A DNA stretch of 64,000 nt from assembly GCA_021018995.1 (NCBI GenBank), contig CM037596.1, forward strand, positions 90,341,184 through 90,405,183. Direction: 5' to 3'. The stretch is from Chloranthus sessilifolius (lineage: Eukaryota > Streptophyta > Magnoliopsida > Chloranthales > Chloranthaceae). Below the pieces are notes generated by a model that was not told the DNA's origin, did no database searches, and saw only the letters and a list, made by a program, of their open reading frames with translations. Shown one piece after another: positions 605 to 64,000 of this stretch (the stretch's first letter is position 1; each line of letters opens with the position of its first letter). Both the position numbers and the translations under genes were made by a program.

Positions 605-1120
605 ACTGAAACTGTCAAATTCGAACGATCGATTCTGGTATTCGATCGATGGAATCTGACAAAGCCTTATGACTCTTGAGTTCTGAAGTGCTCGAACTAT
701 TCGATTTGAGAAATCGGCAGTTCGAACTATAATTCGAACAATCGAATTTGGAATTCGATCGATCGAATTGAATTCTATATATTTCCTATAGAACAGAAGG
801 TATTTTTATAGAAGTTGAGGCCCGATGAATTCAAACTATCGAATTGGGGATTTGATAGTTCGAACTTTAAATCGATTGATCGAAATTGGAATTCAATCGA
901 TCGGATTGTATAAATAATTATACAAATAGGAGGTCTGAATTTGGAATTGAGTTCTGAAGGATCGAACGGTTCGATTTAGAAATCGAACGTTTGAAATAGA
1001 AATCGAATGATCGAATTGGGGAATTCGATAGTTCGAAATACCCCGAGTCAGTGTACCTATAGAAGCTTGGGAAATTCGATTGATCGAATTTCTCAGCTTA
1101 AGGAATTCGAACGGTTCGAA
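605..1120. repeat. Palindrome tract, core TTCGATCGATCGAA
   Basis: Irregularly spaced full and half copies of TTCGATCGATCGAA and TTCGAACGATCGA type words occur on both strands, about 15-40 bases apart. They are imperfect, with variants such as TTCGAACAATCGAA, and the linkers between them are unrelated. This is not a simple satellite. The tract holds the same relative place in this LTR as the TCGACTAGTCGA tract holds in the TE2 LTR. Confidence 0.85.
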
Positions 1121-2184
1121 TTCCCCTGTTTCTGTCTGCTTTGGCTTTCTGAAAGAAACACTGTGGTACATCGTATCAATTGATTTTGACACCTCTGACA
1201 CTTAGTACAATGTACGTATGGACTAGGACTCTTAAAAGGCTTTGGATTTGCTTAGAAAGACGTGAATTAAGGTAGGGGAAATTTCAACTTAAATTGCATT
1301 TATTCTAATTTCATGGACTATTAAGATTTGTATTCTGACACATGGTTTCTGATTACTGTTTTAAAAGTATTCCTTGCATATAAATGAAAGTTCTGTCATT
1401 TCTGACTCCTGACACCTGATTCTTGACACTTGATTCCTGATATTATGTGATATGCATGTGATTTAAAGTTCATGTGACGAATCCCACCGACGCGGCGGGA
1501 TATTCGTGACTGACACAGCTGGATATCCGTGTATCTGTTCTATGATCTACCTGACACAAGTTGCTCTCATTACACAAAGGCTTGTTGCAATTCCTGAAAT
1601 TATTCATTGAACGACGATGGTCGGGGTTACCCATCGGCAAACATCTGATTATCACGTGCCATATTCACGGGAGTTATTTAAGTATATTTAAGTCATTTAA
1701 ATTAATAATGCATTGCATCTGATCATAAACCTTATTTCAAATTTGTTCTATTTTAAATAAAAATGCATCTGTTTCCTGGTATCCTGTATCTGATCTCTGT
1801 TAAATTGAAACTCAGCAACTGTTTTATGATTCGCCTGTTTATATTTTTGTATCTGTTATGTATTATATTTTTGTAGATACTTTTACTTTATTGTCGTATA
1901 CATCTGGTAGGAACCATTATGGGAACTATTATTTTGAGTGATGGATGGCCATCACTAATGGCTCTTCCTGGTTCCTTTTTGCGATGTATACTTTTATCAT
2001 TATCTTAGTTCTCTTCAATTTTTGCGTCATATATGATAACTCTATCTGCCTCTATAGATGGTGTCTGCTCTAATATCCGCTACATGAGCAGACATATGTA
2101 TATTTTGTTCTTGGGATCATAGGCAACGATGATCCTGATGGCACGGGTTTTCAGGTGAGGAAATCCAGGTTGTCACAGTACACA

Positions 2185-2575
2185 GGACCAAACTGATTTT
2201 TTGATTTTGTGTCATTTTGGCCCAAACCAAATCGGAACTGAAATAGATCAAGTTCAGTTTCGGTTAATTGAATCTGCATACAAGGAATCCGAACCAAATT
2301 AATCCAGTTTCAGTTTCGGTCAGTTCAGTTTGGTTTTCAGGTTATTTTTTACTAATTTATTATTATTATTTTTAAAGATTTTTTTTATGGTTTTCGGTTT
2401 TTTTAGTTTATGGTTTGGTTTTCGTTCCCTACTTAGCGAATTTTCGGTTTTCAGCACCCAAAACTGAACCAAATAGATCAAAAATCGGTTTTGGTTTTCC
2501 AGTCTTGGATGTGTTTCGGTTTGGTTTTGGATCAATTTTTTTTGTTTAAGTTTCAACGGTTTTATATTTTTCCAT
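2185..2575. repeat. Low-complexity region of TTCGGTTTGG-like words
   Basis: The stretch is built from degenerate CGGTTTTCGGTTT and CAGTTTCGGT words with T-runs. Reading frames across it are repetitive and do not resemble a protein. Confidence 0.6.
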
Positions 2576-9061: not shown

Positions 9062-9070
9062 CTTAAAATT
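9062..9070. repeat. Left 9 bp target-site duplication of the MULE
   Basis: CTTAAAATT here matches CATAAAATT at 18563-18571 with one difference. Nine bases is the length expected for Mutator-like elements. Confidence 0.8.
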
Positions 9071-9149
9071 GGGAAATTTACCTGACCGGCCCTGTCAGGT
9101 ATGCCTTTTACGTCAGAAGCCCTATAGTTTCATTTTTATCCAGACAAAC
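9071..9149 (+). repeat. MULE left terminal inverted repeat
   Basis: It begins GGGAAATTTACCTGAC and matches the complement of 18484-18562 with few differences, through to CAGACAAAC. Confidence 0.92.
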
Positions 9150-9416
9150 CAGCTCCAAGCCTAGCCGACCCTAAGGAGAGTAAAAGGTCCAAATTACCCC
9201 CTTATATGACCTTCTTTAACTAATAAAGCATCATCTTCTTCCTCATTTTATCCTGCAAAAAAGTTAGAGGTGTAAAACCCTAGACGGAGTGTCCTTACTT
9301 AGTCTGATCTGCTCCGATCTGCTATTTCGAAGAAGAAAACAGAGGCTTGGAAGAAGAAGGCCCTACATTTCTTCATTGTGGCAAAAAGACTCTGAACTTT
9401 GTCCTTGCGACGCGAG

Positions 9417-9762
9417 GTATCCTACTTAACCCCATTTTCAGTTTATTAGTGTTATTTAGTGATGCAGTATCTCATATTCGTCATCGACTCCATATAGAGT
9501 CGATATCGATTGTAAATACAATCGTCATCGACTCTATATAGAGTCGATGCCGATTGTGTATACAATTGATATCGACTCTATATGGAGTCGATGCCGATTG
9601 TATTTGCAATCGATATCGATTGTGTATACAATCGATATCGACTCTATATGGAGTCGATGACGATTGTATTGGCAATCGATATCGATTCTATATGGAGTCG
9701 ATGACGATTGTATTTGCAATCGACTAAGATTTATAGTCGTCTTTTCTCTTTTGTTTCATCAG
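9417..9762 (+). other. Probable 5' UTR intron of MURA, filled by a palindrome array
   Basis: Donor GAG|GTATCC at 9416/9417 and acceptor TTTGTTTCATCAG ending at 9762, with a pyrimidine-rich tract before it. The coding start follows at 9798. Almost the whole intron is the motif array at 9478-9725. Confidence 0.6.
9478..9725. repeat. Palindrome array 1 of the MULE (TCGATATCGA type)
   Basis: Alternating hairpin-like units CGACTCTATATAGAGTCG and CGATTGTATACAATCG types are joined through ATCGATATCGAT or ATCGATGACGAT cores. Spacing is about 26-28 bases. This is the most regular of the arrays. Confidence 0.9.
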
Positions 9763-9797
9763 TCTTATGACCCTTCCTTCTCATTCTTAAACAGACG

Positions 9798-12526
9798 ATG
9801 ACGGACGTGAGGATTCCTCTTCTTTGTCACTATGATGGCCTTCTTGTAAACGATGATGGCTTGTATCAAGGTGGCTGGCGGAGGTTTATTAACATTTCAA
9901 TTGAAATTTCTTATGAACAATTTCATAAGGCGAATGTCTGTTGTCAGTTTTGCGAAGGCGGATGAAACAGTTTCCACAAAGTTTCATATGAAGATAGTGA
10001 ATACGCCTGTGGTTGCCGACATTTTGGACTCTGATGATTTGGCTACATTATTTACGTTTTATAAATCCGGAGTGGACGTCATAAAAGTATTCATCATTAA
10101 GGAACCGTCATCCTTCCCAGTTGAAGCTGAACAAGTAAATCTCGGCGGGACTGATTTTGTGACTCATTCATTTCAGCCATGTAAGTTTGAGGATGAAATT
10201 GTATACGATACCGTCCCGTTAGGCGATGACGGTTATATTGCGGCGAACGATGGCAGAGGGAAAGCAACATTTGATTTAAACGATGCTCCGATTGAATCGT
10301 ATGATGACCCAGTAAAATACATGCATGGGTCACAACAATGTAGTCAATGGTTAGACTATACTTCAGAAAGGGTGGTGGATACCAACGATTTCAGTCATAT
10401 CTTCCCCGGTGGATGGACAACTTGGTTTACTCAAGACTTATGTTCTACCATGCCATCGATGGGAATTACCGGAGTAACTCAACCCCATGTCCATACACAT
10501 GAGCACCCCTTCGGTGAAGGGCCTAGCCAACCACGCCATTATCCATTCTGTGAAGGATCCGGTCAATCACATCAGAACCCCTTCGGTGAAAGATCTAGTC
10601 AACCACCCGAGAACACCGCTAGTGAATGGCGTAGTCATCCTCAAGCCATGAATGAAGATACCTTAGAGGAAGAATATGAAGGCGAACCGGATGGGTTTAT
10701 CAAAGAGGATCCGAAAATTTTTGTGAGAGACATTGACAATCCCCTAGTAGACGGAGATTACGAATGTCGTGAGACATCGCGATTCCTCCGATGAAGGGGT
10801 GGAAACTGAATATCGAAATTGGACGTTTAAAATTGGAGAGATCTTCCGAGACAAACAAACATTTCAAAGAGCATTGAAAGAATACGCGGTGGAGAAAAAC
10901 TTTCAAATTCGGCCTTTGAGGATCGAGTGACAGCCGGATGCTACGAACCCGATTGTTCGTGGCGAATACATGCTTCTAATTTGACTGAGCTCTATTCTTT
11001 CCAAATCAAGACATTCAATAATACTCACACATGCGGAGCCACTAAGATCGGACCGCACGGTCACCGTAATGCAACAATCTCCTTCGTAGCGAACTATGTA
11101 CGGGATAAACTTATGGAAGGATTCGACTACACACCGGCGTCGATAATGTTTGATATTGCAAAAGCTTATAATGTGAAAATCTCATATGCAAAAGCTTGGA
11201 GGGGAAAAGAGCTTGCCCTTAATGATATAAGAGGAAGTTGGGAAGGACAATTTGTTGATCTACCGGCCTACGTGAAGGAGATGGAGAGGGTAGATCCTAA
11301 TGTACAAACATCCTTTCAACTTACTCTTGACGGTAAGTTTCAAAGATTTTTTTGGAGTTTTGGCCCATGCATCGGAAGCTACCGCAATACACTTCGTCGC
11401 ATATTGCTTGTAGACGGCACACACCTACGATGACGTTTCGAAGGGATCCTACTTATCGCCTCTGGGCAAGACGGTAATGGGCATATATTACCGTTAGCAT
11501 TTTTGTGTCGAGTTAGAAGAAGAGGATACGTGGATGTGGTTTCTTGAACGGGTAGGTGCGTTCGTGATCGGTGGGTTTAACGAAGATCTCGTAATTATCA
11601 CGGACAGGTCGAAGGGTTTAATAAATGCGGTGAAACGTATCTTCCCTAACGCATATCACAACTACTGCATGCGGCATATGACACAAAATTTGCAGCACAA
11701 GTATCCCAGGAACAATGTGAAGGGTCTATGGTGGTGCGCCGCGCGTGCATATTCGAAAGAGAAATTTGATTATTTTATTAACGAAATGAAGAAAGATCCT
11801 GCTGATTCTCAGGCCGTAGAATATATTTTGAAAATAGATCCGAAGCATTGGGCACGCGCACATATGGAAGGAAGGCAGTACGATTCCCTGACTACGAATA
11901 TTGCCGAAAGTTTAAACAGCGTGCTAAAGATAGCTCGAGAGAGACCAATTATCGACTTAATCAGAACTACTAGAGAGAAAGTCGCCGATCATTTTCAAAA
12001 ACGCAGAGAGATATCTGAGAAATGGACCACCCTTCTCTGCCCGAAAGCAGACGCTCACATGAAGAAGGTGTTGCAATGGGCCGGTAGAAAGAGAGCTCAA
12101 CCATACGGGCGCGATCAATTCCAAGTCAATTCCGGAAATTTCATTCATCACGTCGACTTGGAACACAAGACAGAAGTTGCCATTCATGGCACATTCTTGC
12201 CTTGCTCCCATGCCGTGGCGGCCATCAATCGAAGAAGTTACGACTATCATAAATTTTGTGAGAACTGATTTTTCACCGCTTGCTTTAGACAAACATATGA
12301 CGAGAAATGGGTTCCCACCCTCGATAAAAGTCAATGGGAGTTCCAAACAGAGCAACTCCCTGAAAATATGAAAGTGAGACCACCCTATTATTGCCGAAAG
12401 CAAGTCGGCCGTCCGAGGAAGAGAAGGATAAGGTCTAAGGGTGGGGTTAGGGCACTACAGTGTAGCAGGTACAGTGAATATGGTCACAACCGCAGGAGCT
12501 GCACGGCAGTGGGACCGATGGGCTGA
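9798..12526 (+). pseudogene. MURA-type MULE transposase, frameshifted
   Basis: The start is ATG at 9798, reading MTDVRIPLLCHYDG, followed by the usual MURA N-terminal YQGG segment. The frame shifts near 9940, near 10755, near 10925, and twice around 11430-11520; an in-frame TGA is at 12266. Parts in order: N-terminal domain (to about 10200), a hydrophilic insert with three imperfect repeats around HPFGEGP / NPFGERS (10500-10600), the MuDR-type DNA-binding region (10850-11080, with CYEPDCSW and HTCG), the MULE transposase core (11380-11700, with DGTHL, TDRSKGL and CMRHM), a SWIM finger remnant (PCSHAVAAI at about 12200; its CxC half is not readable in frame), and a C-terminal CCHC-type knuckle GHNRRSC (about 12481-12501). 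The protein would excise and insert the element via the terminal repeats. Confidence 0.88.
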
Positions 12527-12619
12527 CAGTATATGTTTTTAATAATGATAGATTGAATGTAAATGAGAAATTCAGAATCCATATTTTTTTACTGTAATAT
12601 AATCTTTACCGATGTATCA
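12527..12619. other. MURA 3' region
   Basis: AT-rich sequence after the MURA stop, before array 2. No clear polyadenylation signal was singled out. Confidence 0.4.
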
Positions 12620-12895
12620 TAGAGTCGTCATCGACTATATCCATAATCGATATCGACTATATCAATAATCGATATCGACTCTATATAGAGTCGCCATCGA
12701 CTATTTATAAAGTCGATATCGATTCATTTAAGAATCGGTATCGATTATGGATACCGTCGATGATGACTCTATATAGAGTCGATATCTATTACCTAAAGAG
12801 TTATTACCGATTATTTATATAGTTGGTAGCGATTACATACAGAGTCGTCACCGATTATTTATATAGTCGATGACGACTATATATGTAGTCGCTAA
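12620..12895. repeat. Palindrome array 2 of the MULE
   Basis: TCGATATCGA, ATCGACTATATC and GACTCTATATAGAGTC words lie between the convergent 3' ends of the two genes. The right half is more degenerate (GTAGCGATTAC and GTCACCGATTA variants). Confidence 0.88.
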
Positions 12896-12899
12896 TGGC

Positions 12900-13096
12900 T
12901 GCTATTTCTACTTTTTAACTACAACTACATAAAAATAGTGCAATTATATTCAAAATAATTCATTAAGAAAAAATATTTCATTTACAATTACAAAAATATT
13001 CAAATACAACCACACTATTGCTGCTCCCCCTCCTTTTTATCGTGCTTCGCATCGCCATCATGTATGTAGCGATATGGCCAATTTCGCCGATCCTAT
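12900..13096. other. 3' flank of the Ulp1-like gene
   Basis: AT-rich sequence and a 3' untranslated region read on the minus strand. No other feature is seen. Confidence 0.4.
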
Positions 13097-13927
13097 CTAT
13101 ATCTCGATTATGAAGTCAAATTTCTTCCCCATCATAAAGTATTCGACATACTTCACAACAAACACTCCACAATCACAAGAGTTGGTCTGTCGGGGGACGG
13201 CTTTGATCCGGCAGTCAGTAGATGACCAAGGATAGCTCTTCTTCATTAGTGCAGCGGAGTCACCGTACGAATATAAAATCACGGGAAGGTATTGGGTCTG
13301 TTTCGAAATAATAGAGAGGAGTGTCAGATATGTTAAGCTAACAATGATAAAAGATATGCTAAGCAAAATATCTTACTAGCGCCTGCAATTGGGACACATA
13401 TCTTTCCTTAGAGGGCCTATTAAATATAGGGTCGACGATCATTATCGATCATTCGACTACTTTTACGATCGCAAGCGCCCAGTATAGTGGTTGTTCTGAA
13501 TGTATTGGCATAAATATCTATAAAAAAGTAATATAATCTCAAAGGGTATAATAGAAAAAATAAAAAGAATAATTATAAAGAGGATAAAAGCATACTATGT
13601 TGCATTCGTGAGCCCACAGATTCCGAAGCTCATTGAAGAAGAAAGGTTCCATCAGCTTCTTCCCTCCGGTCTCTCTTTGTCTATAGGCAGCCCACCTTTG
13701 AACTTGAACCTCGATCGACTGGTCGTATAATTTTTCAGCAAGCAGGAACTTGTTGAAATCTCTCAGTTCATAGCCCATGTACGTCAGCGCGGCAGGGTCC
13801 ATAAGAAAGTTTTTGACCTCTTTCTCAGGATGAATTTTATCATCAATTACTTCCAAATGTCTTAGGTAGGCGCCCATAACCTGAAACCAATGCAGTTAGA
13901 TTAAAATATGCAGTTAGAGTTAAATAC

Positions 13928-14185
13928 ATAATCGTTATCGACTCTATAAGTCATCGATATTGATTAATTTGAGAGTCGATAACGATTATTTAAGTCATCG
14001 AAATCGTTATCGACTCTCTAATGAATCGATATCGATGATGTACAGAGTCGCTAACGATTACATAAGCCATCGTTAGCGACTCTAAAAGCCATCGATCTCG
14101 ATTAATTTGAGAGTCGATAACGATTATGTAAGTCATCGTTATCGACTCTATAAGCAATCGATATCGACTCTTTTTCAAGTTGTTG
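13928..14185. repeat. Palindrome array 3 of the MULE (inside an intron)
   Basis: Located in the intron between exons 14317-14233 and 13880-13596. Words such as ATCGTTATCGACTC and ATCGATATCGA recur about every 25 bases. Confidence 0.88.
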
Positions 14186-17075: not shown

Positions 17076-17079
17076 TCAA

Positions 17080-18562: not shown

Positions 18563-18571
18563 CATAAAATT

Positions 18572-49370: not shown

Positions 49371-49386
49371 CACCCCTAAACCTAAT
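49371..49386 (-). promoter_or_regulatory. TE3 polypurine tract
   Basis: Minus strand ATTAGGTTTAGGGGTG, preceded by GCTTGAGGACTAGCAAAG, a segment typical of the pre-LTR region of this group. Confidence 0.75.
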
Positions 49387-51284: not shown

Positions 51285-54200
51285 CTAATCATCTGAATTT
51301 TCAGCTGCTTCGGCTATGTATTAGACTCCTTTGCCTTTGGCCTTCTTTATAGTTGTAGCAAAGGATTGGTATCTTTTTGAAGTGACTTTCCTCTTCTTGG
51401 TGCTGCTTCTTTTTCTTGGAGTGGGTGCAGTCTTTGGGTAGGCTTTTGTGAAGGTTCCTTTATGTTGATCCCAAGTTTAATCTTTTTGGGCTCTTGGGAT
51501 TTAGGAGTAGTTGCCTTTGGAGGGGCTTTAGTAGTGAAGAGTTTGGCTGCTGCTTTCGCTAAGTCCCTATCACCAATATTTGCTAAGGTCTACTGCAATG
51601 CATGTGCAGTCCTAGCATACTCATTTGCTCTAACTTTCACCAATCTCAAGGCTGCCTACAAGTTCTTGATCACATCCTCCATTCCATCAGCTCTATTCTT
51701 CTCTTGATTGTATTGGATCATTATCTCCCTTGACCCCCTGCTTGATCTTCTTCTTCTCTAACTTGTGGGCTAGCTGCAGGAATTTTATTTTATCCAGGAG
51801 GGGCTGCCTAACTGAAGTTCTGAGGTCAGCCATGCCCCTAACCACATCCCTTTTTATGTAAGCATTTTCCTTCATGACTTGAAGGAGGGTGTAGTATGGA
51901 GGCATATGATTGAAAGAGGCTGATAATATGGGCTACTCAGCAGTTGGAGAAGGACCAACCAGTAATGATGAAGGGATGGATGATGGCATGGGTAAGGTGG
52001 ATGTAGAGGGTAAAGGCTGAGGGACTTCAAGCTCAAGTTCTGTGAGGTCTATTACCTCTGGGTCCATTTGGGAGGCTTTGGAGGAGGTGGGGATTAGGGT
52101 TTCAACATCTGTGGTAGCATTAGATGTTGTTACTACAGGTGGGGTTGGAGGTTGGGGTTCTGGGTAAGGGAGTACTAGAGGTGGGGAAATAATGGGTATA
52201 AGGTCAGGTTGGGGTTCTGTTTCAGGGCCTGTTTGTGTGGAAGCATTGGTAAGTTTTATTGGGGAGATTTCAAGAATAGGTTCAATGGATGTAGCAGCAA
52301 CAAGTGTTACTGCTATGGTTAAGGGCTGGGGAGATGGGGGTGGGGTAGGTAAATGGGTAGGTAAGGGGACAAATGGCTGTTGGGAAGGTTGGGTTAAAGT
52401 TGACAAAGTGGATTGGATGGCTTGTAAACTGGTTTGAATGGAGGCCTGGTTTTGGAGGGTGGAGTTCATGGCTTGAAGGTTGACCTCTATGGATGTTTGG
52501 GTTTGGGTGTTGGTCATCACTTGGGGTTGAAGGGAGAGGAGGAGGTTGAGGATTTGGGGTAGAAGATCAGGGGTGATAGGGGTTGTGGGATGGATGGGTG
52601 GAATTGGTTGAAATGGGGAGGTGGGTGCATGAGTGAAGTTGGTGGACTCTGGGGAAGTAGGGGGAGTAAAATGATGGGGATGTGGTGATTCTGGAGGAGG
52701 GGTGAAATGAGGAGGATGAGGTGAATCTAGAAGAGGGGTGAACTGAGGAGGATGAGGTGAATCTGGATGAGGAGTGAACTCATAATTGATGTCCCCTATG
52801 ATAGAGGACATCATAGCTGAGTACTCCTCAGTTTGGAAGGGGTCTTGGTCATGAGAAGGGGAGAATGGAATGGATTGGCCCAAAGTTGCAAGAATGATAG
52901 GTTCAGTATGTGTAGAGGTTTCAATGGGCTAAGGTGAGGCTTCAAAGGAGTTGTGTGGGATGGTAGGGATTTGAGGCTCAGTTTCAGCATAGTGAACTAA
53001 AGAGGCTTTGGTTGGTGAGGGTGGTTGGATATCAATGGTTGGGTCTGGTATGGCTATGGTTTTTGGGGTAGGGATGGTTTGGGAGACATAGGTGGGTTGT
53101 GGCTCGGTGGGGGCTTTGGTAAGCTTCCTTTTCTTTTTATAAGTTACTTTAACAGGTAGGCTGGGATGGGCTGTGGATGTAGGCACATGTGAGGTTGTGG
53201 TGACTGTGGTAGTGGGTAAAATTGGCTCAGCTGTAGAGGGTTGTAGGATGGGTGTGATGGTAGTAGGTGTAGATGTTGGGAATGCTGAGGTTGCAGTGGT
53301 GATGGGAGTGGTTATAGGTGAGGGTATGGTAGGGCTGACTGGCAATGGAATGGAGGTGGGGCTTGCTGGCACTATAGGAGCCAAGTAGTTATCGCTACAG
53401 AGGTGACTGACGTAAGTAGCAAGAAGAGAGGTAGCAAGAATGATCTAGCATTGTTGGGGCTGCCTGAGCTAGGAGCTCCTCCTCCTTCTTCTTTTCTATC
53501 AGAGTGTCACTGATACCTCATTGTTTTTTTCCACACTTGCTGGGGTTCAAAGTGAGGGTCTCCTCATTCATCTGAAATTGGTATCCCCCTAGCTTTAGCA
53601 AGACTGTAATGAGCCTACAATAGGGAAAAGCATGGGGCTTCTGCTCCTTCTTCGCTTTCTTATGTATATCTTTCATTCCATCAAAAATTAGTTTGGCTGC
53701 ATCAATGTAGTGGTTCAGGTGGAAGGAGTAGAGGGCATCAGCAATGAGAGACCTCCTATCCTGCTAGTGTCCAGAGCAATAAACATTCTTTCTTAGCACT
53801 TCATCTATAAACCTCAGGCCTGGGTGCAGGTCTCTCTTCCTAATTGACAACCCTGAGGCTGTGATCCCCCCAGGGAGTTCTTTTGCAATTTCGAGGATAG
53901 TGGCTATCAAAGGCGCACCCAAACCACTCTCAGCAGTGTAAGTGGCTGGTATCCCAAGAATCCTAGTAATTGCTATTTGGTTAAACAACATCTCAAAATT
54001 ATCTATTAGCACCAACAATGTTGGGTTTTCATCATCCCCAGTCTTCACCCTGATGTTTTGGTAAAATAACTGCACTAGTCTAGGGAAGACTAGTTACAGT
54101 GGGGGCCTTAACAGGGGCAGTAGAGAGGCTTTAATCAGGTACTCAATTGAAGTGACAGTTTCAGGTAGTTCCTCAAAGAATGCCTTATCAAAGGCAGTTT

Positions 54201-54618
54201 TAGCTTCCAGCTTAATTGCAAACACCCACTCAGAGGGGGTTCTGAGGTACTCATTATTTTCCTCCTCCTTAGGGGCACCCTCATGGACCTCAGGGGCCAC
54301 TCCCTTGCCCTTCTTTTATTTTTTCTTTGGTTTCCTAGGGCTTTTGGAAGGTGGGTGGTCCCTAGCTCTTTTCTTTGGAGCAGACTTTTTCTTTGCAATA
54401 GAGGCATCAGAGGCCACACCCTTGGCCTTCTTCACAGGGGCTGCCTTCTTCTTGGTTTGCTCCACTTGGGGCTCAACAACTTGAGTAGGTACCTCAGAGG
54501 TCTCCACTATGGAGGCCTCTGCAATCCTCACAGATTTTCGAGTTGCCACAAGGCTACCAGTAGGTATAGGGGTCACCAAGGCAGCTAAAGTGTCAGTGAA
54601 CTTTGAACCCGGGGCCAT
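51285..54618 (-). pseudogene. TE3 accessory ORF, about 1,100 codons, PRLVQLFYQ family
   Basis: From MAPGSKFTDTLAALV (54618): a Lys/Ala-rich basic region (KKKAAPVKKAKG, KKSAPKKRARD), EWVFAIKLEAKTAFDKAFF, IEYLIKASLLPLL, FPRLVQLFYQNIRV (about 54050-54090), ILGIPATY, then RRSLIADALYSFHLNHYIDA (about 53700-53757) matching the TE1 block. The second half (53384-51940) is Pro/Thr/Ser-rich with LQPQVMTNTQTQTSIEVNLQ-type helices; the end (51905 to 51285) is helical and basic, closing AEAAENSDD. Stops at about 54313, 54094, 53764, 52929 and 51933 and frameshifts near 53450 and 51690 break it. Family length elsewhere is shorter; the second half is an expansion. Function unknown. Confidence 0.78.
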
Positions 54619-54989
54619 GGCTATACCAATTCCTCAAAATTAGGGATTTAAAAGAAAAATGTGGGTGGTTCTCAGTTCAATGGAGGTAATGCCCACAAAT
54701 TCCTCACTACTCAACACAATAGTAGCAGCTGAATCAAACTAAAGGAAGGACAGAGAACACTTACCACAAGAGAGCTAGGTTTCCACTTCAAAGATTGCAT
54801 AGTGGCTCAAATCTTTCCAAATCACATGCAAAATAACCTGGAGGTGTTATGGAACACAATGGTAGGAGGTAGGTGGTTGAGTTGTAGTGGTTTAGGTAGG
54901 AGAGAAGAAAGATGGGAGAAAGGAGCTTGGGAGTGCTCAGTGAGACTTAGGGCAAAGAGAAAGAGTATGGGGAAAAGAGGAAATTCGCA

Positions 54990-55390
54990 TGGTTTAAATG
55001 GAGGAACTCGTGCCTCACACAGTTCGCGCCAGGTACTCCTGGGGCTACATCTTCTCGCTCACTAAAAAGGCAGTCTCGCGAGGAATACTTTTTAAGGTAC
55101 AGAAAAGTCTCGTGAGGTCACTTCATAGAGTTGAATCAAAGCCTCACGAGATATTGAACATTGCAGGCTTTAGAATCTTTGCTCGCGACGCTCTCGCGAA
55201 GTACAAAATGTGTGATTGCCAATTTGCACGCAGCTCAATGTCGTGGAGAATAGCTAGCCTCGCGAAGCTCATTTGCTGGTGTTCTTCATATATTTAGTTT
55301 GCAAGGCTCTCACGAAGTAACAATTCTTTATCCGAGCCCCGCAAGAAAGCTTACCAATAACTCGTGAAAATGAAATTAAGGCCATTCAGC
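54990..55390. repeat. TE3 internal tract, core CTCGCGAG
   Basis: TCTCGCGAGG, CTCTCGCGAAG, CCTCGCGAAGCTC and CTCACGAAG words between the integrase gene and the accessory ORF. The same word type is in the TE3/TE4 LTRs and, in the same position before the accessory ORF, in TE2. Confidence 0.88.
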
Positions 55391-55837
55391 ATCGCAAGAA
55401 AATAAAAATCACTCTTTCTCCATGCTTGCACAGTGACCTGTGCATCCATACTGACATGCACCTAGCTATTGTGCACCAACACCAGCTATCTTCAAATTTA
55501 ATCCATTTCACCATGATAATTGTATGCCCATTACCCACATATGCACAATAAAAATTTTAGATGACAGCAGATTCATGAACATTTAATCCACTTCAAATGA
55601 TTTTCAATTATAATAGATTCATGAACATTTACAAGACAACAAGTCAACCACTCAATCAACATATGTTTCTCCACATGCACCTTAAATTAGATGACAAGAC
55701 TTATACATCACATCAACAACAAGACAAAACAACATTTTCATATCAACAACAAAACTCAAACAACACATGACAAATTTTTAAACAAACAATACACAAAGTA
55801 ACAAAGTATGGTACACTGTGTGCAGAGCTATGGTTCA
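55391..55837. other. TE3 spacer after integrase
   Basis: AT-rich sequence with short internal repeats (ATAGATTCATGAACATTTA type at about 55565-55630); no coding signal. Confidence 0.5.
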
Positions 55838-57240
55838 CTAATCAGTGGGAGGTTCATGCAGGTGAATGGTCTGAGGATGCTCCACTGAATTTTCTACACA
55901 AATTTTTAGCCTTTGACCATTCACTTTCATGATTTTCCCAGATATGGGATCCAAGATCTTCACAGCACTAGATGGGGAGGCATGGATGACAGTGAAAGGT
56001 CCATCCCATATGGATTTTAACTTCCTTGAAAAGAATTTTAATTTGGAGTTGAAAAGCCAAACCTTGGTACCAACATTGAAGTCTTTCCTCATGAGTTTCT
56101 TGTCAAAGAATGCCTTGGCTCTTTCCTTGTAAATTTTTGCATTTGTATAGGCTTCCATTCTCAGCTCATCAAGCTCTAACAGTTCCAATTTCCTGTGAGA
56201 ACCAGCAGCAGTTAGATCAAAGTTTAGTGTTTTAATAGCCCAGTAGGCTCTATGCTCTAGCTCCACTGGCAAGTGACAGGCCTTGCCATAGACCAGCCTA
56301 AAAGGGTACATACCAATAGGGGCCTTATAGGCAGTCCTATAAGCCCATAAAGCATCATTCAGTTTCTGTGCCCAATCCTTTCTATCTGTCCTCACAGTTT
56401 TCTCCAAGATATGTTTGATCTCCCTATTAGAAATTTCAACTTGCCCACTGGTCTGTGGGTGGTAGGGAGTTGCAATGCTGTGTGTAATAGAATACTTTTT
56501 GAGCAAGTTCTCAAAAGGCCTGTTACAGAAATGACTGCCCCCATCACTAATGATAGCTCTGGGGGTACCAAATCTGGAGAAGATATTGTCCTTTAAAAAT
56601 TTAAGGACAACTGTATGGTCATTTGTCCTTGTGGCAATGACTTCCACCCATTTGGACACATAGTCTACTGCCACAAGTATAAAATTGAAACCCATAGGAG
56701 AAAAGGGTCCCATAAAATCAATCCCTCAGATGTCAAACAGTTCTACAACAAGGATGGGTTGCAATGACATTGAAACTTTCTTAGAAATGCCTCCCAACCT
56801 TTGACATCTTTCACAGGCTTTGCAATGTATGTATCCATCTTTGAACAAAGAAGGCCAATAAAACCCACATTATAAAACTTCTACAGCTGTCTTTTTGCCA
56901 CTAAAGTAACCTCGAGAGGCTTGCTCATGGCACATAGAAAGAATGCTGTGAAACTCACTTTCAGGCACACATCTCCTGACAATCTGATCTGCACAATGAT
57001 TGTATAGGTATGGATCTTCCCACAGAAAATATTTGGCCTGCGATAAAAATAGGTCTTTGTCCATCTTGGACCAGTGAGGGGGATCCTACCAACAACAGGA
57101 AAATTTACAATGTGTGCAAACCATGGCACACTAGACTGCATAGCAAATAACTGCTTATCAAGGAACAATTCATTGATAGGTGTTGTTGCACATTCTTTCA
57201 AAATAATTCTAGAGAGGTGGTCAGCCACCACATTCTCAAC
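55838..57240 (-). pseudogene. TE3 integrase
   Basis: Zinc-binding H2C2 module at about 56960-56800 (HSILSMCHEQA ... CKACERC), core with Asp in GIDF (about 56718), Asp in IISDGG (56545) and Glu in QVEIS (56437), i.e. D-57-D-35-E, all three catalytic residues present. The C-terminal domain reads [18 protein letters not shown] and KVNGQRLK. Breaks: TGA for the conserved Trp before GIDF, a stop near 56875, and a frameshift near 57070. The longest open part is 291 codons (56713-55838). Confidence 0.93.
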
Positions 57241-57530
57241 TCATTTCTTATCCTTGATTTCAAGATCAAACTCCTGCAACAGGAGGATCCATCTGATCAG
57301 CCTTGGTTTGGCATCCTTCTTGGCCAATAGGTATTTCAGGGTTGAGTGATCAGTAAATATAATAATTTTAGACCCAAGCAAGTAGGGTCTAAACTTGTTT
57401 ACAGCAAACACCACAGCAAGTAGCTCCTTCTCAGTGGTGGTGTAATTGAGCTGAGCTTCAGCTAGTCTTTTGCTGGCATAATAAATCACTGCAGGTAGCT
57501 TATCTTTTCTGTCCTAAGAAAGCACCTATG
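57241..57530 (-). pseudogene. TE3 RNase H
   Basis: [15 protein letters not shown] (catalytic Asp), [13 protein letters not shown] (Glu) and [10 protein letters not shown] (Asp) are all readable. A frame break sits between GQK and MIYYASKRL at about 57495, and a TGA follows EIKDKK at about 57240, before ENVVADHLSR. Confidence 0.9.
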
Positions 57531-59100
57531 GTCAAGTCTGATGCATCACACATCAGTTTAAAGGGGAGTGAGTAATCTGGGGCTTGGATTACAGGAGCAG
57601 TGATAAGGCACTTTTTTAAGATCTCAAAGGCCTCAAGGCACTCAGCAGAAAATTCAAATGGCATATCCTGACACAGCAGGTGGCACAATGGCTTTACAAT
57701 TTTGCTGAAGTCCTTAATGAACCTCTTGTAAAATCCAACATGCCCTAAGAAGGATCTGATTTGCTTGACAGTCTTGGGTGGGGGCAGGTGCGAAATCAGG
57801 TCCACTTTAGCATTGTCAACCTCTATTCCTCTTTGGGAGACCACATGGCCTAGCACAATTCCTTGTGTTACCATAAAGTGGCACTTTTCCCAGCTTAAGA
57901 CCAAATTGGTCTCTTCACATCTTTGTAAAACCAGGTCAAGGTGACTCAAGCATTGGCTAAAGCTATTCCCATAAATTGAGAAATTATCCATGAAGATTTC
58001 TAAGAACTTGTCAATCATATCAGAAAAAGTTGCATACATGTACCTCTGAAATGTGGCTCGGGCATTGCACAGTCCAAAAGGCATCCTCCTGTAAGCAAAG
58101 GTGCCAAAGGGACATGTGAAAGTAGTTTTTTCTTGATCTTAAGGATACACAAGGATTTGGTTATACCCTGATTATCCATCAAGAAAGCAGTAAAATGCCT
58201 TCCCAGCCAGCTTATCTAGATTTTGGTCTATGAAAGGGAGAGGGAAGTGGTCTTTCCTAGTCTTAGAGTTGAGTTTTCTGTAATCAATGCAAACTCTCTA
58301 GCCAGTGGTCTCTCTGGCTGGCATCAACTCCCCAAAATCAGAAGTAATAACTGTTATGCCTGACTTTTTGGGTACCACTTGGATTGGTGACACCCACTCT
58401 GAATCTGAAATGGGGTAAATTACCCCTACATCTAACAGTTTTACTATCTCTTTCAAAACTACCTCTTGCATGTGAGGATTAATGTAAAATCCCACATCGA
58501 GTAAATAGTTGTCCTGACCCTGGGAGATAAGTAACGGCCCACTCTTACTTGCAAGATGCATTTTGAGTGGGTATGGCAGCCCATGTGACAGGTCGGCCCA
58601 TACCAAAAATAAAACCTTGAAGGGAAAGGGCTACTGGTGGGACCAGGGACGGCTGGTGAGACTAAGTGGAGTCACCCAAAGAGGACAATATCTTGGCACG
58701 TGGCGTCGGGGCATTACAAAATGATATCAGAGCCGAGGACGGCTCTATTACTAGATGGGGAGATTGTAAAATCCCACATCGAGTAAATAGTTGTCCTGAC
58801 CCTAGGAGCTAAGTAACGGCCCACTCTTACTTGCAAGACGCATTTTGGGTGGGTACGGCAGCCCATGTGATGGGTCGGCCCATACCAAAAATAAAACCTT
58901 GAAGGGAAAGTGCTACTGGTGGGACCAGGGACGACTGGTGGGACCAAGTGGAGCCACCCAAAGAGGACAATATCTTGGCACGTGGCGTCGGGACGTTACA
59001 ATTAAGCTTCCTATGCATCTCCCTTGAGGGTTTTGCACCCTCTTCCAAGTGAATTTTGTGCATGCAAACTGAGGCATCAATGCATCCTAAATCAGCAATT
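57500..59100 (-). pseudogene. TE3 reverse transcriptase, split by a TRIM
   Basis: The RT leader CMHKIHLEEGAKPSREMH (about 59080-59025) is separated from its continuation PHMQEVVLKEIVKLLDVGV (58484-58420) by the TRIM at 58485-59000. Then VCIDYRKLN (stop for the preceding Trp), PFGTFAYRRMPFGLCNA and the active-site motif FMDNFSIYG, where family members have a second Asp (FMDDF): the catalytic residue is changed to Asn. RSFLGHVGFYKRFIKDF and CHLLC follow. The enzyme is inactive by three independent defects. Confidence 0.93.
58485..59000 (+). mobile_element. TRIM (terminal-repeat retrotransposon in miniature), 516 bp
   Basis: Terminal direct repeats 58485-58718 and 58765-59000 (TGTAAAATCCCACATCG ... 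TTACA), primer site TGATATCAGAGCC at 58722-58734 (one mismatch to the tRNA-iMet complement), polypurine tract AGATGGGGAGAT at 58753-58764 and a perfect target duplication ATTAA (58480-58484 and 59001-59005). Only 46 bases separate the repeats and no protein is encoded, so it needs enzymes from another element. It is inserted antisense in TE3 pol. Confidence 0.96.
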
Positions 59101-59242
59101 GTCTACCCCATTGCTTTTGTATGCTTCTTAAGAACACTCAATAATTCCTCCTCCTGCTCACTAGTGAGAGAGGAAGAGATAATCACTGGAAGCTTTTTGT
59201 TTTTCCCCAAGAAGGCATACTTTAACGTGTTTGGGAGCTGTT

Positions 59243-60052
59243 TCAGCTCCAACTCAGGGAGACTTTCAATGGAAAGCAGCAAAGTGCCTTAGTGGTTTGA
59301 GGAAGGGGCAGCAATATAGGTTTCCAGCTGGAATGCTGCACTAGGCCCACAGAAGACTCTATTTTGGTGATATCTTCTGTCATGAGAACTTGGGCCTCCC
59401 CCTCAACCATACTCCAAATACTCTCCAGATTTTCAGCAATATTATCCCAATCCAGCAGATTGGATAATTCTTCTTTCACAAGGCCATCAAGTACATTTAT
59501 TGCACAACAGTCCTCAATGTCCATCTGAGGATGCCTAGCAGCATTGTACACATTTAATTGGGCCTTCATGTTCCCAAAGGTCACCTCCACCACCCTTGAC
59601 CTGTATTTAATCCAAGCATTGGCAGTGGCCAAGAATGGTTTTCCAAGGATGACAAGAATTGGGGTTTTACTTTTGCAAGGGTCCATGTCCAAAACTAGGA
59701 AATCAACAGGATAGTAGAACTTGTTCACCCCCACTAAAACATCCTCCAGTACACCCACGGGTCTCCTCTCAGACCTATCAGCCAGTTGGAGCACAACTGA
59801 TGTAGATTTTAGCTCTCTGAAACTCAGCTCCTCATATACAGAAAATGGGAGCAGGTTCACACTGGCCCCTAAGTGCAAGAGGGCTCTACCAATGGTATGG
59901 TTTCCAATTATGTAGGGGATAGTAGGTATCCTTGGATCCTGTAATTTCTCAAGTGTGGCAATGGACAGAACTGACTCAACATGCTCAACAGCAAAGACCT
60001 TTTTGGACAACTGCACCCTTGCCTTTCTTTTCTGTGTGCAGAGGTCCTTCAA
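59243..60052 (-). pseudogene. TE3 retropepsin
   Basis: Open for 269 codons. ALLHLGASVNLLPFSVYEEL is the active-site loop, with His where the catalytic Asp should be (LDLGAS in relatives). VGVLEDVLVGVNKFYYPVDF and ILGKPFLATANAWI are the usual later strands. Upstream KILKDLCTQKRK is the conserved gag-pro linker of Athila/Tat elements. Confidence 0.92.
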
Positions 60053-60440
60053 AATTTTAGCATAGGCAGGGACCTATTTTATAGCATCAAGCAAGGGCAA
60101 ATTGATCTTGACCTACTTGAAGGTCTCCATCATTTCCCTTATCATAGGCAGGGACCTATTTTATAGCATCTGAGTATTTCCCTTATCAAAAGGAGATGGG
60201 CCAACAAGTGCATGAGGAAATGGCAGCTATGGGATTGCTGGTGCCACAACTCATGCCTAACCATATCATGGTCAAATTTTTTTTTTTTTTTCTTCATTTA
60301 TTGTTTGCTGTTGGGGCTCAACAGCAGCCCCTTTATTTTGCCCTTACTGATCCACAGCAAGGGATGAATTCCTTGGTTCTTTAACACTCACAATTCATTG
60401 ATTTTCACTCTCTATGACCTCCTCAGTTGCTCTGCCCATT
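60053..60440. repeat. Short duplication and T-run in the gag-pro region of TE3
   Basis: AGGCAGGGACCTATTTTATA occurs at about 60065 and again at about 60145. A T-run at about 60278-60289 lies downstream. Coding across here is broken. Confidence 0.65.
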
Positions 60441-61540
60441 AAGTTGTCAACCACCTTGCCACTCCTTAGGGTAGTGATTGCATTAGCCTCCTCATGGGTA
60501 GAGGAGCCTTCTCCAATCATGTATTGCCCTTTAAGATTGGCCAAGGGTTAACTAGGCAATTTGCCCTCCTCTCTTATGTTCAAGCATTACAGATTTGACC
60601 TAGTTGGTCCTCTATTTTTTTAATACTTTGCCCATGAGAGTTCACAATTTGGACCAAGTTTCCCAGATTTTGCATTGAAGACAGCATTTGCTCTTCAAAG
60701 GACGAGGATCTGGGTTGTTGTGGGGGCAAGACCAACTGATTGGGCTATGGGGCAGGCAACTAAAAATTCTGCCTTAGTGCATATTCTTGATTAAATTGGT
60801 GTTGAGGTCTGTATGGAGCTGCCAACTGCTGCTGTTAGGGTTGGTGGTATGTATCTTGTCTCTACCTCAAATTTGGGTGGTTTCTCCATGTGTACCCACC
60901 AGGTTGCTGCCCATATGCTTGGGCGGCATTGGCATGATCCAACACTAACTCAGGGAATTGGTTGGCTGATGGACAATCTTGGAGTAAATGTGTGAGAGAT
61001 TGGCATATCAGACATGCCTCTTCCACTTGTGCAACCATCCTAGGCTGCATCACATTCATTAATTTCTCAAACTTTAAACTCTAATTGTCCACCTTCCTTT
61101 CTAAATCACTTTGCACCTTAACTTCATACATTCTACCTCTAGGGGTGGACTCTTTCTCCAATTTGGCTGAGGTCTGGCTGTCATTGCGAGAGAGTGACTC
61201 CTGCTGTAGGAATTCTCACTTATAATGTCAAACAACTCCTATGCCTCATCAGCTGTCTTGTGGAGGTAATTGCCCCCACATGAAGCATCCACCATGTCCC
61301 TACTTTTGGGATTAATTCCTTGGTAAAAGACTTGCACAAGTTGCCACTGTGGAATTTGGTTGTGGGGACATTATTTTAATATTTTTGGAACCTCTCCCAT
61401 GCTTCATAAAAATCATTAGTTGAGGATTGAGTGAATGACAATATGTTTGTCCTCATCTAACTAGTTTTATTCATGGGAAAGAACTTTACAAAAAATTGTC
61501 TTTGGAGATCACTCCATGACTAGATGCTACTGTTGTCTGG
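60441..61540 (-). pseudogene. TE3 gag, N-terminus missing
   Basis: Readable with many stops: SWSDLQRQFFVKFFPMNKTS (61524-61465), TNDFYEAWERFQK, LVQVFYQGINPKSRDMVD (about 61340-61290), a CCHC knuckle CLICQSLTHLLQDC (61014-60973), WRNHPN (about 60890), and TLRSGKVVDN (about 60485-60450). This is the Athila/Tat gag order. The sequence before SWSDL, including most of the capsid N-terminal half, is absent because LTR-like DNA begins at about 61540-61560. Confidence 0.85.
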
Positions 61541-61559
61541 TTTTTGTATTTCGATTGAG

Positions 61560-64000
61560 TGCTATTAGGTTATTAGAAAACAGTGGAGAAAATGAATCAA
61601 TAGTGGAGATATGGAGATGGGTTAGCACAGCAAATTTTAAATATACAATCCTGTAAGATACAGGGTCCATTATAGCAAATTTTGATAAGAGTTTGTCCCA
61701 CAAAGAAATTGATCTAGAACCCAGAATGGGCTATAATAGTAGGCCTCCAGATCTGGCTACAAATATGACAATCCTAAAGAAAGGGAGTTGGTGTCACGAC
61801 TACACTAAATTAATACTAATAATAGAGAAATAAAATGTAGCCCTATCCTAAAAAAAGGGTGAAGAAGAAAATGGTGGTAGTGTGTGCCAAAATAAAATAG
61901 AAAAATTGTGAGAAGTAAGGAGGTTGAGCTAGAGTTAATAATGCAATAATGTAACTCAGATTTAGTCTATCTCTGCAGTGGTCCTTGCTAAGACGCTATT
62001 GATAGCCTCAACAAGGTATAAGCTCCCAGTTTAACCCATGCCATTTGGGGCGCTCTTAGGGCTATACTCTGCCCACTATAATGGTCACAGAGTATCTGAT
62101 AGAGTATGTCAAATCCCATTAGTTAAACCAGAAATTCGCTAGTCTAATCTAGAAGAGTGGACTGATCATTTCCCCAACCATTGGACCAACTCTAGCCATG
62201 AATACTATTGCAGCATTATGTAATGCCAGTGCTACAAGCTCCCCAGACCTGAGCACAGATTTGGCTGACATCCATAGGTATTCCAACCCATAAATCCTAA
62301 GTACTTTGCCAATGCCAACGGCTCACTGTGCCCACAAAGAGGACCATATACAGGTTGGATAAGGCTCTAGACTCAGATGGTCATTGCTACAAAAGGCCTG
62401 CAATGAATCAGCCTCAAATTGCAATTACCACAGAGAAATCAGATCTAACATCTGATATCGATTAGGTAAGACAAAGGGGAGCCAGTTACTGTACAACCTC
62501 CTCACAAGGCTCTAGAAGCTCATGTGCAGGGGAGAAGAATCCTCCTCAAACATGGGACTGGACACAATCTTAGGGTTATACTCTATCCACTACAATGGCC
62601 ATAGGATATCCCATTGATCTATCCATACCTCAGAGGTCTGAGAAAGAACATGTAAACTGTTGCAACCACCATGGTCTACAGGTCTCCGAGCTCCCCAGAT
62701 CTCTCTATTGATCCAACATTACTTTTCATGTGTCTATCAAACCAAGGGAAATCAGATGGTAAACAATAGATCTACTAAAAATTGAGTGGGCTAATCCCAT
62801 TTACATGAATCCTATAGACATCTAAAGAAACCATAAGATCTATAGATTTGATTAAGCATTAAAATAGCAGTTCATTGATAAAAGCAAAACTTACAATGAA
62901 CTGTCTCCTGGCTGCAGCCTATATACAACTACTCATCCACAATCCCAATGTATATAAAATCTATTACAAGACTAAAACAAAAATAAACCTAGCTGCTTAC
63001 AGGGAGATTAGCTAGCAAGTGCTGAGCTAAGAGAGAAGAAAAATAAGAAAAAGAAGTGATTAAACCCTAACCTTGGCCTACTGGAGCTCTCAGCCGACAG
63101 AGGATGAAGGAAAGATGAAAATAATAAACTCTATGTACAGCTCTTATACTTTATCCAAAAGGCTTTGGCTCAAAAGTGATTAACCCTAATTTTTCCAGCA
63201 GACGTGGCACTATTTCAACCCTTGGATGCCTGAAGATATGCGCCTCAAAATCTGTGCCTCAGAAAGTGTGCCCTAGCCTTGGGAAATTCCCAAAAGGTCC
63301 TTGAGTTAAAACTGAGAAGTGGAGAGCCCGCACTTCGCGGGGCTGGTATTTGCTTTTAGCTCATTTGCACAGCTACTTTGCCTTCGTGGAGTTGCCTTTC
63401 ACTGATGGGAAGAGCTCATTCGCGTAGTAAACCTTTAGTGAATTGCGCAGTTGCCTCGCGTCGCAGTGCTATCGCGGGGATGATTTGGAGAGCCAGGGTG
63501 TCTCACACAGTAGAGCTTCAGGAGCTCTCTCTCTCGCTAAGTACTCGCACAGTTATGCTCCTGCGCTCGCGTAGTAACTTGTAAAGCTCCAGAGTGCATG
63601 AGATCTGCGCGAGGGAAATTCTGGGTGTCTCTCTCTTCCAGGGCTATGCTAGAACTCCGCGAGGTGACTTTTTGTTCTCTATGCATATGGGCTCGTTGTG
63701 TTCCTCGCGCGATTGCGTTGAGGCTTGATCTCTGCGAGAGCTTCGCGACCACTAATTCTGAAGGTTTTACACCGCGAGATCTTCGCGATATCTTTACATC
63801 TTTCCTCTTGACTGTGCGGCCTATCTGCGTGAGGGCTTCTTCCACTGCATCTTTAGCTTCATGAGAAGGCTCCTCAACTCTGCGAGGTATATTTCTTGAT
63901 ACTCTGCTGCACTACACTTGTTGCTATTGCAGCATCCTTCCTTCTCAGCTGACTTCAGTCATCTGCTAGACTTTCAGTCAATGATGATCAACAATAATGA
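61560..64000 (-). mobile_element. TE4: LTR related to the TE3 LTR, cut by window end
   Basis: Aligns with 46767-49030 in the same orientation (shared GAGTTTGTCCCACAAA, TAGGCCTCCAGATCTGGCTA, AACCCTTGGATGCC blocks), but with many substitutions and indels. The start is placed at 61560 by alignment and could be as early as 61531. By comparison with the 2.6 kb TE3 LTR, its far end should lie some 200 bases past the window. It may be a separate sibling insertion, or the 5' LTR of TE3 after loss of the primer site and gag N-terminus. Confidence 0.7.
63320..63900. repeat. TE4 LTR tract, core CTCGCGAG
   Basis: CTTCGCGGGG, CCTCGCG, CTCCGCGAGG, CCGCGAGATCTTCGCGA and TGCGAGAGC words, irregularly spaced; same position as 48470-49030 in the TE3 LTR. 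Confidence 0.85.

Follow-up and report, generated by a model that had tools for sequence, protein, structure and literature searches.

Do the mobile elements at one plant locus each carry a short palindrome of their own, repeated through their non-coding DNA, and what might bind it? The locus is a window of 64,000 nt, the whole stretch analysed (C13:90341184-90405183), in the 2.17-Gb genome of Chloranthus sessilifolius. It contains a partial long terminal repeat (LTR) at 1-2177 (LTR_A), a Mutator-like element (MULE), the LTR elements TE1 and TE2, and a complex running past 64000 (TE34), which we take from its protein features to be Athila-like (Table 1). LTRs or terminal inverted repeats (TIRs) together with flanking duplications were detected for TE1, TE2 and the MULE, and lineage classification was confined to the Pfam matches listed. 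The reading preferred here, with a probability of roughly 55%, is that the arrays are clustered sites for family-specific, probably dimeric and most likely element-encoded DNA-binding proteins.

Cores, spacing and CpG content of the arrays

Repeated tracts, palindromic cores and a preference of cores for one element family, as put forward in the original prediction, were found far above chance relative to both shuffled sequence and the other regions of the window. All 17 exact occurrences of TCGATATCGA in the window lie inside the MULE, all 24 of TCGACTAGTCGA inside TE2 and all 3 of TTGCCGCGGCAA inside TE1; CTCGCGAG occurs exactly 3 times (40063, 48853 and 55075) and TTCGATCGATCGAA once. The last three words are scarce in exact form but clear as degenerate motifs. 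With up to one mismatch allowed in seven window regions, and 100 dinucleotide shuffles per region, TCGAYTARTCGA was found 68 times in TE2 (shuffle mean 0.16), twice in LTR_A and 0 times in the other five regions; TCGATATCGA 47 times in the MULE (0.75) and at most once in any other region; TTGCCNNGGCAA 12 times in TE1 (0.25) and 0 times in all others; and TTCGANCGNTCGAA 6 times in LTR_A (0.00), once in TE2 and 0 times in the others. The corresponding figures for CTCGCGAG were 12 in TE34 (0.86), 8 in TE2 (1.85), 8 in TE1 (1.25) and 2 in the MULE (2.17), and since it exceeds its shuffles in TE34, TE2 and TE1 it is not a private core. The claim of a different core for each element thus holds for four of the five cores, which are private to their own element, and fails for CTCGCGAG. 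The proposed TE1 tract is weak: its sites are few, none was found internally, and the observed/expected ratio (O/E) of CpG in the tract is only 0.65.

The suggested genome-wide count gave 5483 occurrences of TCGACTAGTCGA against 82 of TCGAAGCTTCGA, a palindrome matched in CpG and composition that was adopted after a first control, the reversed TCGACTAGTCGA pattern, turned out to lack CpG. TTCGATCGATCGAA occurs 14269 times genome-wide; its reversed control, like that of the MULE pair counts below, lacks CpG. On G000:C1 many TTCGATCGATCGAA clusters are separated by about 5.6-6.1 kb, the distance to be expected if two LTRs, or an LTR and an internal array, belong to one element.

The motif recurs in separate non-coding parts of one element, as predicted, namely in LTR and internal arrays of TE2 and in many arrays of the MULE. 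The irregular spacing that had been proposed was not found. In the MULE, 57 full TCGNNNNCGA cores are spread over eight arrays and are nearly always separated by a multiple of 22 bp despite varied linkers, and spacing is 20-22 bp in TE2, LTR_A and TE1; among the window cores only CTCGCGAG lacks regular spacing. Genome-wide, MULE core pairs at exactly 22 bp numbered 2950 and those at all spacings of 23-40 bp together 125, in counts as the search reports them, and the 22-bp pairs have many different linkers in the places listed. For spacings of at most 35 bp, 10 of 15 arrays or array sets fall mostly at 19-23 bp, the exceptions being L013, L024, L009 and two CTCGCGAG sets. Nor did the linkers prove unrelated: similarity of LTR and internal array linkers within an element was 0.70, 0.78 and 0.80 against shuffled values of 0.62, 0.66 and 0.57, and array exchange within the element may therefore contribute. 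A satellite or minisatellite, in which the whole unit including the linker is conserved head-to-tail, does not describe these arrays, the linkers varying widely at an exact 22 bp, though non-randomly within an element.

In the 70-unit MULE alignment, 57 units were anchored on the word holding both CpGs, and the remaining 13 were filled in where the 22-bp phase called for them. The apparent CpG retention of 65/70 and 64/70 is therefore biased; among the 13 filled-in units the left CpG was kept in 8 and the right in 7. The self-complementarity of 0.99 and the regular spacing seen in this alignment are likewise due in part to the anchoring, but the pair counts above and the spacing figures for the 15 arrays or array sets use no fill-in.

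A relative of TE2, L020 (with L026), has arrays in both LTRs, and its accessory open reading frame (ORF) is 79% identical to that of TE2 over 48 aa. Within the TCGA[4]TCGA site the centre is TTAA in 32 of 40 sites in L020 and in 12 of 15 in L026, with CTAG in 0 of either. Among the 57 TE2 sites the centres are CTAG (24), TTAG (18), CTAA (7), TTAA (6) and two others, and CTAG is the most frequent in all three TE2 arrays (8/23, 9/18 and 7/16; TTAA 3, 0 and 3). The leading centre is common within an element and different between elements.

Arrays elsewhere were sought by a de novo scan for 10-mer palindromes in 20 fetched 10-kb stretches, 18 of them arbitrary, with a floor of 5 hits and mirror words as control. 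Palindrome arrays were present in the window itself and in 7 of the 20 (6 of the 18 arbitrary stretches and the right flank of the window), with L008 just at the floor; the strongest palindromes reached 10-23 hits, and mirror words at most the floor of 5, in 4 of the 20. The phenomenon is a property of the genome and not of this window alone. The cores in the arbitrary stretches mostly differ from those of the window. Across the seven stretches with arrays, TGATCGATCA was found in L006, GATACGTATC, GTATCGnnCGATAC and TGCTATAGCA in L009, TTTGATCAAA in L008, ATCGGCCGAT and GACTCTGTACAGAGTC in L012, TAGGTACCTA in L013, TTCGATTAATCGAA in L020 and ATCGATCGAT in L024, the last being similar to the LTR_A core. 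A CpG-bearing 10-mer occurs in only 4 of the 18, so palindromy is more general than CpG; the proposed rule that cores bear CpG applies to the window families, but some array palindromes elsewhere have none. The scan undercounts, because CTCGCGAG-type tracts and TE1 escape it. Two scans of viral contigs gave no array pattern and no integrase relative. In L012 the ATCGGCCGAT and GACTCTGTACAGAGTC arrays (3547-5832 and 7341-7926) have spacings of 20 bp and 22 bp, and GACTCTGTACAGAGTC resembles a linker dyad of the window MULE. The TAGGTACCTA array of L013 (7047-8552) is poor in CpG and has spacings of 21 and 29 bp; an ORF in the same stretch presumably encodes a hAT transposase.

CpG retention in the tracts, the remaining part of the prediction, is striking in the Athila-like lineage. 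Outside its tracts the window complex has 57 CpGs in 15.5 kb (O/E 0.08), 19 of them within a duplication at 58483-59001, and inside them 94 CpGs in 1.7 kb (O/E 0.99). In six Athila-like copies (the window complex, L042, L045, L046, L047 and L015) the tract O/E is 0.9-1.3 and that of the rest 0-0.2, figures that are partly by construction, and to that extent count against the preferred reading, as tract limits were drawn by hand around motifs; 500-bp and 250-bp profiles give the same peaks. The presumed LTR in L071 has 0.81 in its tract against 0.05 in the rest, and the T32 coding DNA (see below) of four Athila-like loci has 0-6 CpG per about 500 bp, with 3 of 4 frames open. In all five LTR-type pairs compared, the tract is less identical than the remaining LTR. 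The proposed comparison of CpG decay did not show protection: with repeat alignment uncertain, decay inside and outside the tract was 0.18/0.17 for TE2, 0.44/0.42 for L015, 0.24/0.14 for L020, 0.50/0.33 for TE1 (3 of 6 sites inside) and 0.45/0.50 for the left Athila-like LTR paired with L006 (where the outside value comes from 2 of 4 sites), a pair that may not be the LTRs of one insertion. Decay is thus equal or higher inside in four of five pairs; in the fifth, which has very few sites outside, it is slightly lower. Since tract CpGs decay like those outside, the idea that retention comes from low methylation of these copies was rejected. CpG lost outside and kept inside across the lineage speaks for the importance of the sites to the active lineage, and retention is better read as a property of that lineage than as protection within copies.

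Arrays upstream of Transposase_32 genes

An array lies just upstream of the accessory ORF in TE2, L020 and the Athila-like complex, and arrays were therefore predicted, before the comparison was made, to lie upstream of Transposase_32 (PF20167, T32) genes generally. A genome search gave 150 scored hits, all above the Pfam cut-off, of 13856 first-look candidates. The 2 kb upstream of 20 of the 150, picked by eye for spread of contigs and ORF lengths, were compared with 90 segments from the 18 arbitrary stretches, an array being at least 6 sites. Arrays were found upstream of T32 in 14 of 20 loci and in 11 of 90 comparison segments (Fisher p 4.7e-7, a value too small because the 20 loci are not independent). 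Mirror words reached 6 sites in 0/20 and 0/90, and none of 290 shuffles exceeded 4 hits.

The motif tracks the T32 sequence cluster, with L028, L032 and L044 as exceptions. In the GGACGTCC cluster 9 loci have at least 6 sites, 2 have 4-5 and 2 have none; the other clusters are CGATTAATCG (2 loci), CTCGCGAG (4, two of them recognised just by CTCGCGAG with at most one mismatch and a CpG peak) and TGATCGATCA (1). The TGATCGATCA array may belong to another element, because its T32 is near-identical to the GGACGTCC group. A T32 tree, in which long branches (L020, TE2) are misplaced, was used only for L064 and the two arrayless copies, which fall inside the GGACGTCC group.

Matching LTR-side arrays were found in TE2, L020, TE34, L015, L024-L025 and L042-L071. 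The order pol, array, T32-like ORF holds in L020 (array at 8682-9325) and in L024-L025, where an array directly after pol in L024 is followed in the next 6 kb by a T32-like ORF (37% identity with TE2 across 131 aa) and by another array built on the same core; the PF20167 accessory gene is in sense orientation, downstream of pol. The T32 identity in TE1, TE2, L020 and L025 is given by weak or relative-based matches only. On the minus strand the Athila-like complex reads LTR-type block, pol, tract, accessory ORF and LTR, with a third LTR block just beyond the window. Across 167 aa its accessory stretch shares 75% identity with L062, and L062 passes the PF20167 cut-off.

T32 hits form a convergent pair, with about 4 kb between the two, at C10:127909086-127913895 and again at C14:20323441-20328302 (G000).

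Candidate binding proteins and competing explanations

The MULE transposase matches PF10551 at 47.1 bits, above the cut-off of 27.6. On the opposite strand lies a second gene, whose piece at 15993-16775 matches PMD (E 1.5e-7, 31.4 bits, below the cut-off of 34.9) and weakly DUF1985 (E 0.0011, 19.4 bits, below 35.1). The piece at 15131-15538 gives coiled-coil-type matches including a partial leucine zipper (bZIP_1, E 0.0005, below cut-off), and that at 13097-13372 matches the Ulp1 peptidase C48 (PF02902, E 7.7e-9, 36.1 bits, above 20.7) over profile positions 157-190 of 217 only. The three pieces probably form one gene with introns. DUF1985 is common in the genome (150 scored of 4046 candidates). 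Protein database searches gave no relatives of the PMD piece or the TE2 accessory ORF at E <= 0.001, and PDB sequence searches a best E of 0.71. AlphaFold2 single-sequence models of the MULE PMD piece and the TE2 accessory domain had a mean pLDDT (predicted local distance difference test) of 37.8 and 39.3 and were left unused.

In the anti-silencing systems of Arabidopsis VANDAL elements, the VANC protein has a DUF1985 domain, and the short motifs to which it binds lie in tandemly repeated non-coding DNA (PMC5735166). VANDALs belong to the MULEs without TIRs (PMC13317346), and a 2025 meeting report mentions unpublished structural work on VANC with DNA (PMC12859917). The arrays here resemble this system in their short family-specific non-coding repeats that differ in related families and in the fast turnover of tandem arrays (PMC5735166, PMC10398659); an element gene with DUF1985 is a possible further likeness, the match here being below cut-off. 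Unlike the present cores, the VANC21 and VANC6 motifs named there (YAGTATTAY and AGTTGTCC/AGTTGTAC) are non-palindromic and lack CpG; unlike a VANDAL, the window MULE has 98-nt TIRs that are 86% identical, and several of the families here are LTR retrotransposons. With KIU/KAONASHI the MULE shares a gene opposite the transposase with an Ulp1 peptidase domain (PMC13317346, PMC2528002). The review treats KIU/KAONASHI-type genes as Ulp1-bearing VANC genes acting on KIU-carrying VANDALs, which recognise motifs of their own kind (PMC13317346). The Mutator-type transposase, the Ulp1 domain and the family-specific non-coding motif of a KIU-type element are all present in the window MULE, but its TIRs, palindromic CpG motif and 22-bp phase set it apart, and any membership at family level is tentative. 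By analogy a VANC-type system is the natural reading for the MULE, though its TIRs separate it from the classical VANDALs.

In the LTR elements only the layout parallels that of VANC. An accessory gene with a partial PF20167 match and predicted nuclear location has been described in sunflower Athila, and Tekay accessory ORFs are further examples in plant LTR retrotransposons (PMC11728184; review PMC7264820). Retand elements have TRP28 ORFs and family-specific tandem arrays, which lie where an accessory gene predicted to be DNA-binding is also found (PMC11963269). The accessible parts of these accounts call the functions unknown and contain no palindromic CpG arrays common to the LTR and the accessory upstream region (PMC11728184, PMC11963269, PMC7264820), and PMC12844716 goes no further than asking if ORFs of this kind modulate methylation. 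The literature searched, much of it available in part and with subscription papers mostly outside it, yielded no account of LTR-element accessory genes with matching palindromic CpG arrays, and novelty is provisional.

As had been proposed, the palindromes would suit dimers. The candidate binder would be the product of the PMD/DUF1985-Ulp1 gene (KIU/VANC-like) in the MULE and of the Transposase_32 accessory ORF in the Ty3 LTR elements. Sites every two helical turns could place dimers side by side on one face of the DNA; bound there, along the LTR and the stretch upstream of the accessory gene, they would make both accessible and counter silencing in their own family alone, much as VANC acts on VANDAL. 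That a protein binds, which protein it is and that silencing is opposed are all inferred. The wider proposal is more tentative and somewhat doubtful: several Ty3 LTR lineages, not MULEs alone, would run a VANC-like self-recognition in which each family's Transposase_32 protein binds a private palindrome, mostly repeated at two helical turns, in the LTR and its own upstream region. As the CpGs in these families' sites are symmetric, binding could be gated by CG methylation, giving a self-reinforcing on/off switch; the CpG-poor Athila-like lineage keeps its CpG mainly at such sites. The genome would then hold many mutually exclusive element codes.

A number of observations weigh against element-encoded binders. 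The 20 T32 loci form 4 sequence clusters only, with 13 loci in one. L028 and L032 have no arrays though their T32 is near-identical to array-bearing copies, and the T32 adjoining the L044 array falls in the GGACGTCC group. Four downstream fetches aimed at LTRs gave a matching tract in L071 (CTCGCGAG) only: L068 had 1 site and a CpG peak, L069 none, and L070 had 3 GGACGTCC sites, the motif of its T32 group and not of its upstream TGATCGATCA array. The T32-like ORFs of L005 and L016 have no clear upstream array (L005 has 5 weak odd-centred sites farther off), and TE1 shows no internal array. Arrays occur also in stretches without a T32 match (L006, L008, L009, L012 and L013), some without CpG. 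Similarity of linkers within an element leaves room for recombination between arrays, and after insertion tract CpGs decay about as others do. The original prediction of a VANC parallel finds support in the MULE from PMD/weak DUF1985 (both below cut-offs) and Ulp1. For T32, 13 domains compared by hhalign with the PMD piece of the MULE, rather than with VANC itself, showed no homology to that piece (probability 0.2%).

That each family captured or evolved its own palindromic enhancer for host transcription factors, serving the LTR and the accessory promoter with no element-encoded binder, is unlikely but the strongest of the alternatives. Location in LTRs and upstream of ORFs suits enhancers, and arrays are also found where no accessory gene was seen. 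One host would, however, need many different palindromic factors; the site centre differs between TE2 and L020, yet within an element the same centre is the commonest in every array; and in the MULE further arrays separate the second gene's pieces or follow the transposase.

Neutral minisatellites that bind nothing, short palindromes expanded by slippage or with the help of hairpins and kept alike by recombination of LTR arrays with internal ones, are a somewhat poorer explanation. The tandem structure, the faster divergence of tracts than of the rest of the LTR (5/5 pairs) and the likeness of linkers within an element speak for it. Against it stand the lack of comparable mirror-word arrays, the excess of varied-linker pairs at 22 bp (2950 against 125 at 23-40 bp), the concentration of CpG in the tracts of a CpG-poor lineage and the enrichment of arrays upstream of one gene family. 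Least probable are transposase or integrase sites serving mobility rather than silencing control. They are plausible where the element is a DNA transposon, as in the MULE or the L013 stretch, given that subterminal repeats of hAT and CACTA elements are transposase binding sites and that arrays lie near both MULE ends, but at odds with MULE arrays running through the middle of the element and with LTR-element arrays adjoining the accessory ORF; LTR elements are not known to need such internal sites.

Plant LTR retrotransposons have many accessory genes without known function, and a matching private DNA code beside them would give these a testable role. If element-encoded binding is correct, sequence-specific anti-silencing would no longer be confined to a single group of MULEs but would reach the element class that dominates large plant genomes, the coexistence of families without cross-activation would be explained, and many natural protein-palindrome pairs would be at hand for locus-specific methylation control.

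Element inventory and further observations in the window

Table 1. Elements, genes and arrays of the window (positions counted from its first nucleotide)
Feature	Position	Strand	Remarks
LTR_A tract	605..1125	.	core TTCGANCGNTCGAA; near sites 20-22 bp apart; CpG O/E 2.13 vs 0.80 in rest of LTR piece
TIR-type MULE	9063..18565	.	98-nt TIRs, 86% identity; shared flanking word of 9-11 nt (AAAATTTGACT), probable target duplication
MURA-type transposase, three open pieces	9850..12268	+	PF03108 just below cut-off, PF10551 above
Second MULE gene, open pieces	13097..17767	-	PMD/weak DUF1985, coiled-coil-type and Ulp1 pieces; arrays between pieces and upstream
MULE array, left TIR to transposase ORF	9478..9735	.	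22-bp phase, core TCGNNNNCGA
MULE array downstream of transposase	12611..12900	.	22-bp phase
MULE array between second-gene open pieces	13930..14172	.	
MULE array between second-gene open pieces	14877..15104	.	
MULE array between second-gene open pieces	15793..15946	.	
Two MULE arrays upstream of PMD piece	16888..17252 (16888-17060, 17176-17252)	.	
MULE array near right TIR, upstream of second gene's first open piece	18005..18200	.	
TE1	23009..33617	+	LTRs 23009-26172 and 30146-33617 (~93%); 5-bp target-site duplication CTTGA; gag zinc knuckle 26872
TE1 accessory ORF pieces	28777-29563		28943-29563 matches T32 profile built here, E 2.5e-8; no Pfam match
TE1 tract	24255..24345	.	TTGCCNNGGCAA, paired sites 20 bp apart; other-LTR counterpart 31405-31500
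TE2	34376..45915	-	LTRs 34377-37404 and 42916-45915 (96.7%); 5-bp target-site duplication CTACA; gag zinc knuckle 42040-42309
TE2 LTR array	36210..36825	.	core TCGAYTARTCGA, mostly 20-22 bp apart; other LTR 44740-45345
TE2 internal array	39510..40610	.	directly upstream of accessory ORF; CTCGCGAG-type tract interrupts at 39990-40275
TE2 accessory ORF pieces	38685..39307	-	basic N-terminus; weak PF20167 (E 0.079, below cut-off)
Athila-like complex (TE3+TE4)	46747..64000	-	LTR 46747-48911; pol ORFs 55838-60073; LTR-type block 61639-63960
CpG-rich CTCGCGAG-type tract, left LTR of Athila-like complex	48380..49040	.	
CpG-rich CTCGCGAG-type tract, Athila-like complex, pol to accessory ORF	54980..55420	.	
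CpG-rich CTCGCGAG-type tract, right LTR-type block of Athila-like complex	63320..63900	.	
Athila-like accessory ORF pieces, Transposase_32 (PF20167)	53518..54633	-	53767-54093 and 53521-53763 each below Pfam cut-off alone; Lys-rich piece 54316-54633

No pol domain was identified within TE2. The CTCGCGAG-type tract within its TCGAYTARTCGA array puts two codes in one element, perhaps from an Athila-like family. At 25245-25395 and 32700-32834 the TE1 LTRs contain tandem repeats of 39-40 bp that include CCCGCTAACTCGGG, a further dyad unlike TTGCCNNGGCAA.

TE3 and TE4, originally described as two simple elements, were not confirmed as such and are treated here as one complex. Together, 46747-64000 and L006:1-3104 hold three successive LTR-type blocks with a single inner remnant, which would make a tandem or recombinant Athila-like structure. 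The block at 61639-63960 was rejected as partner of the left Athila-like LTR, L006 holding a closer one, and the pair was not used for dating. The duplication at 58483-59001, between the protease and reverse transcriptase ORFs, consists of two 237-nt direct repeats (94%) and is probably a nested insertion. Between TE2 and the Athila-like complex, ORF pieces at 45916-46765, which we take to be from a leucine-rich-repeat kinase, apparently represent an interrupted copy of a host gene.

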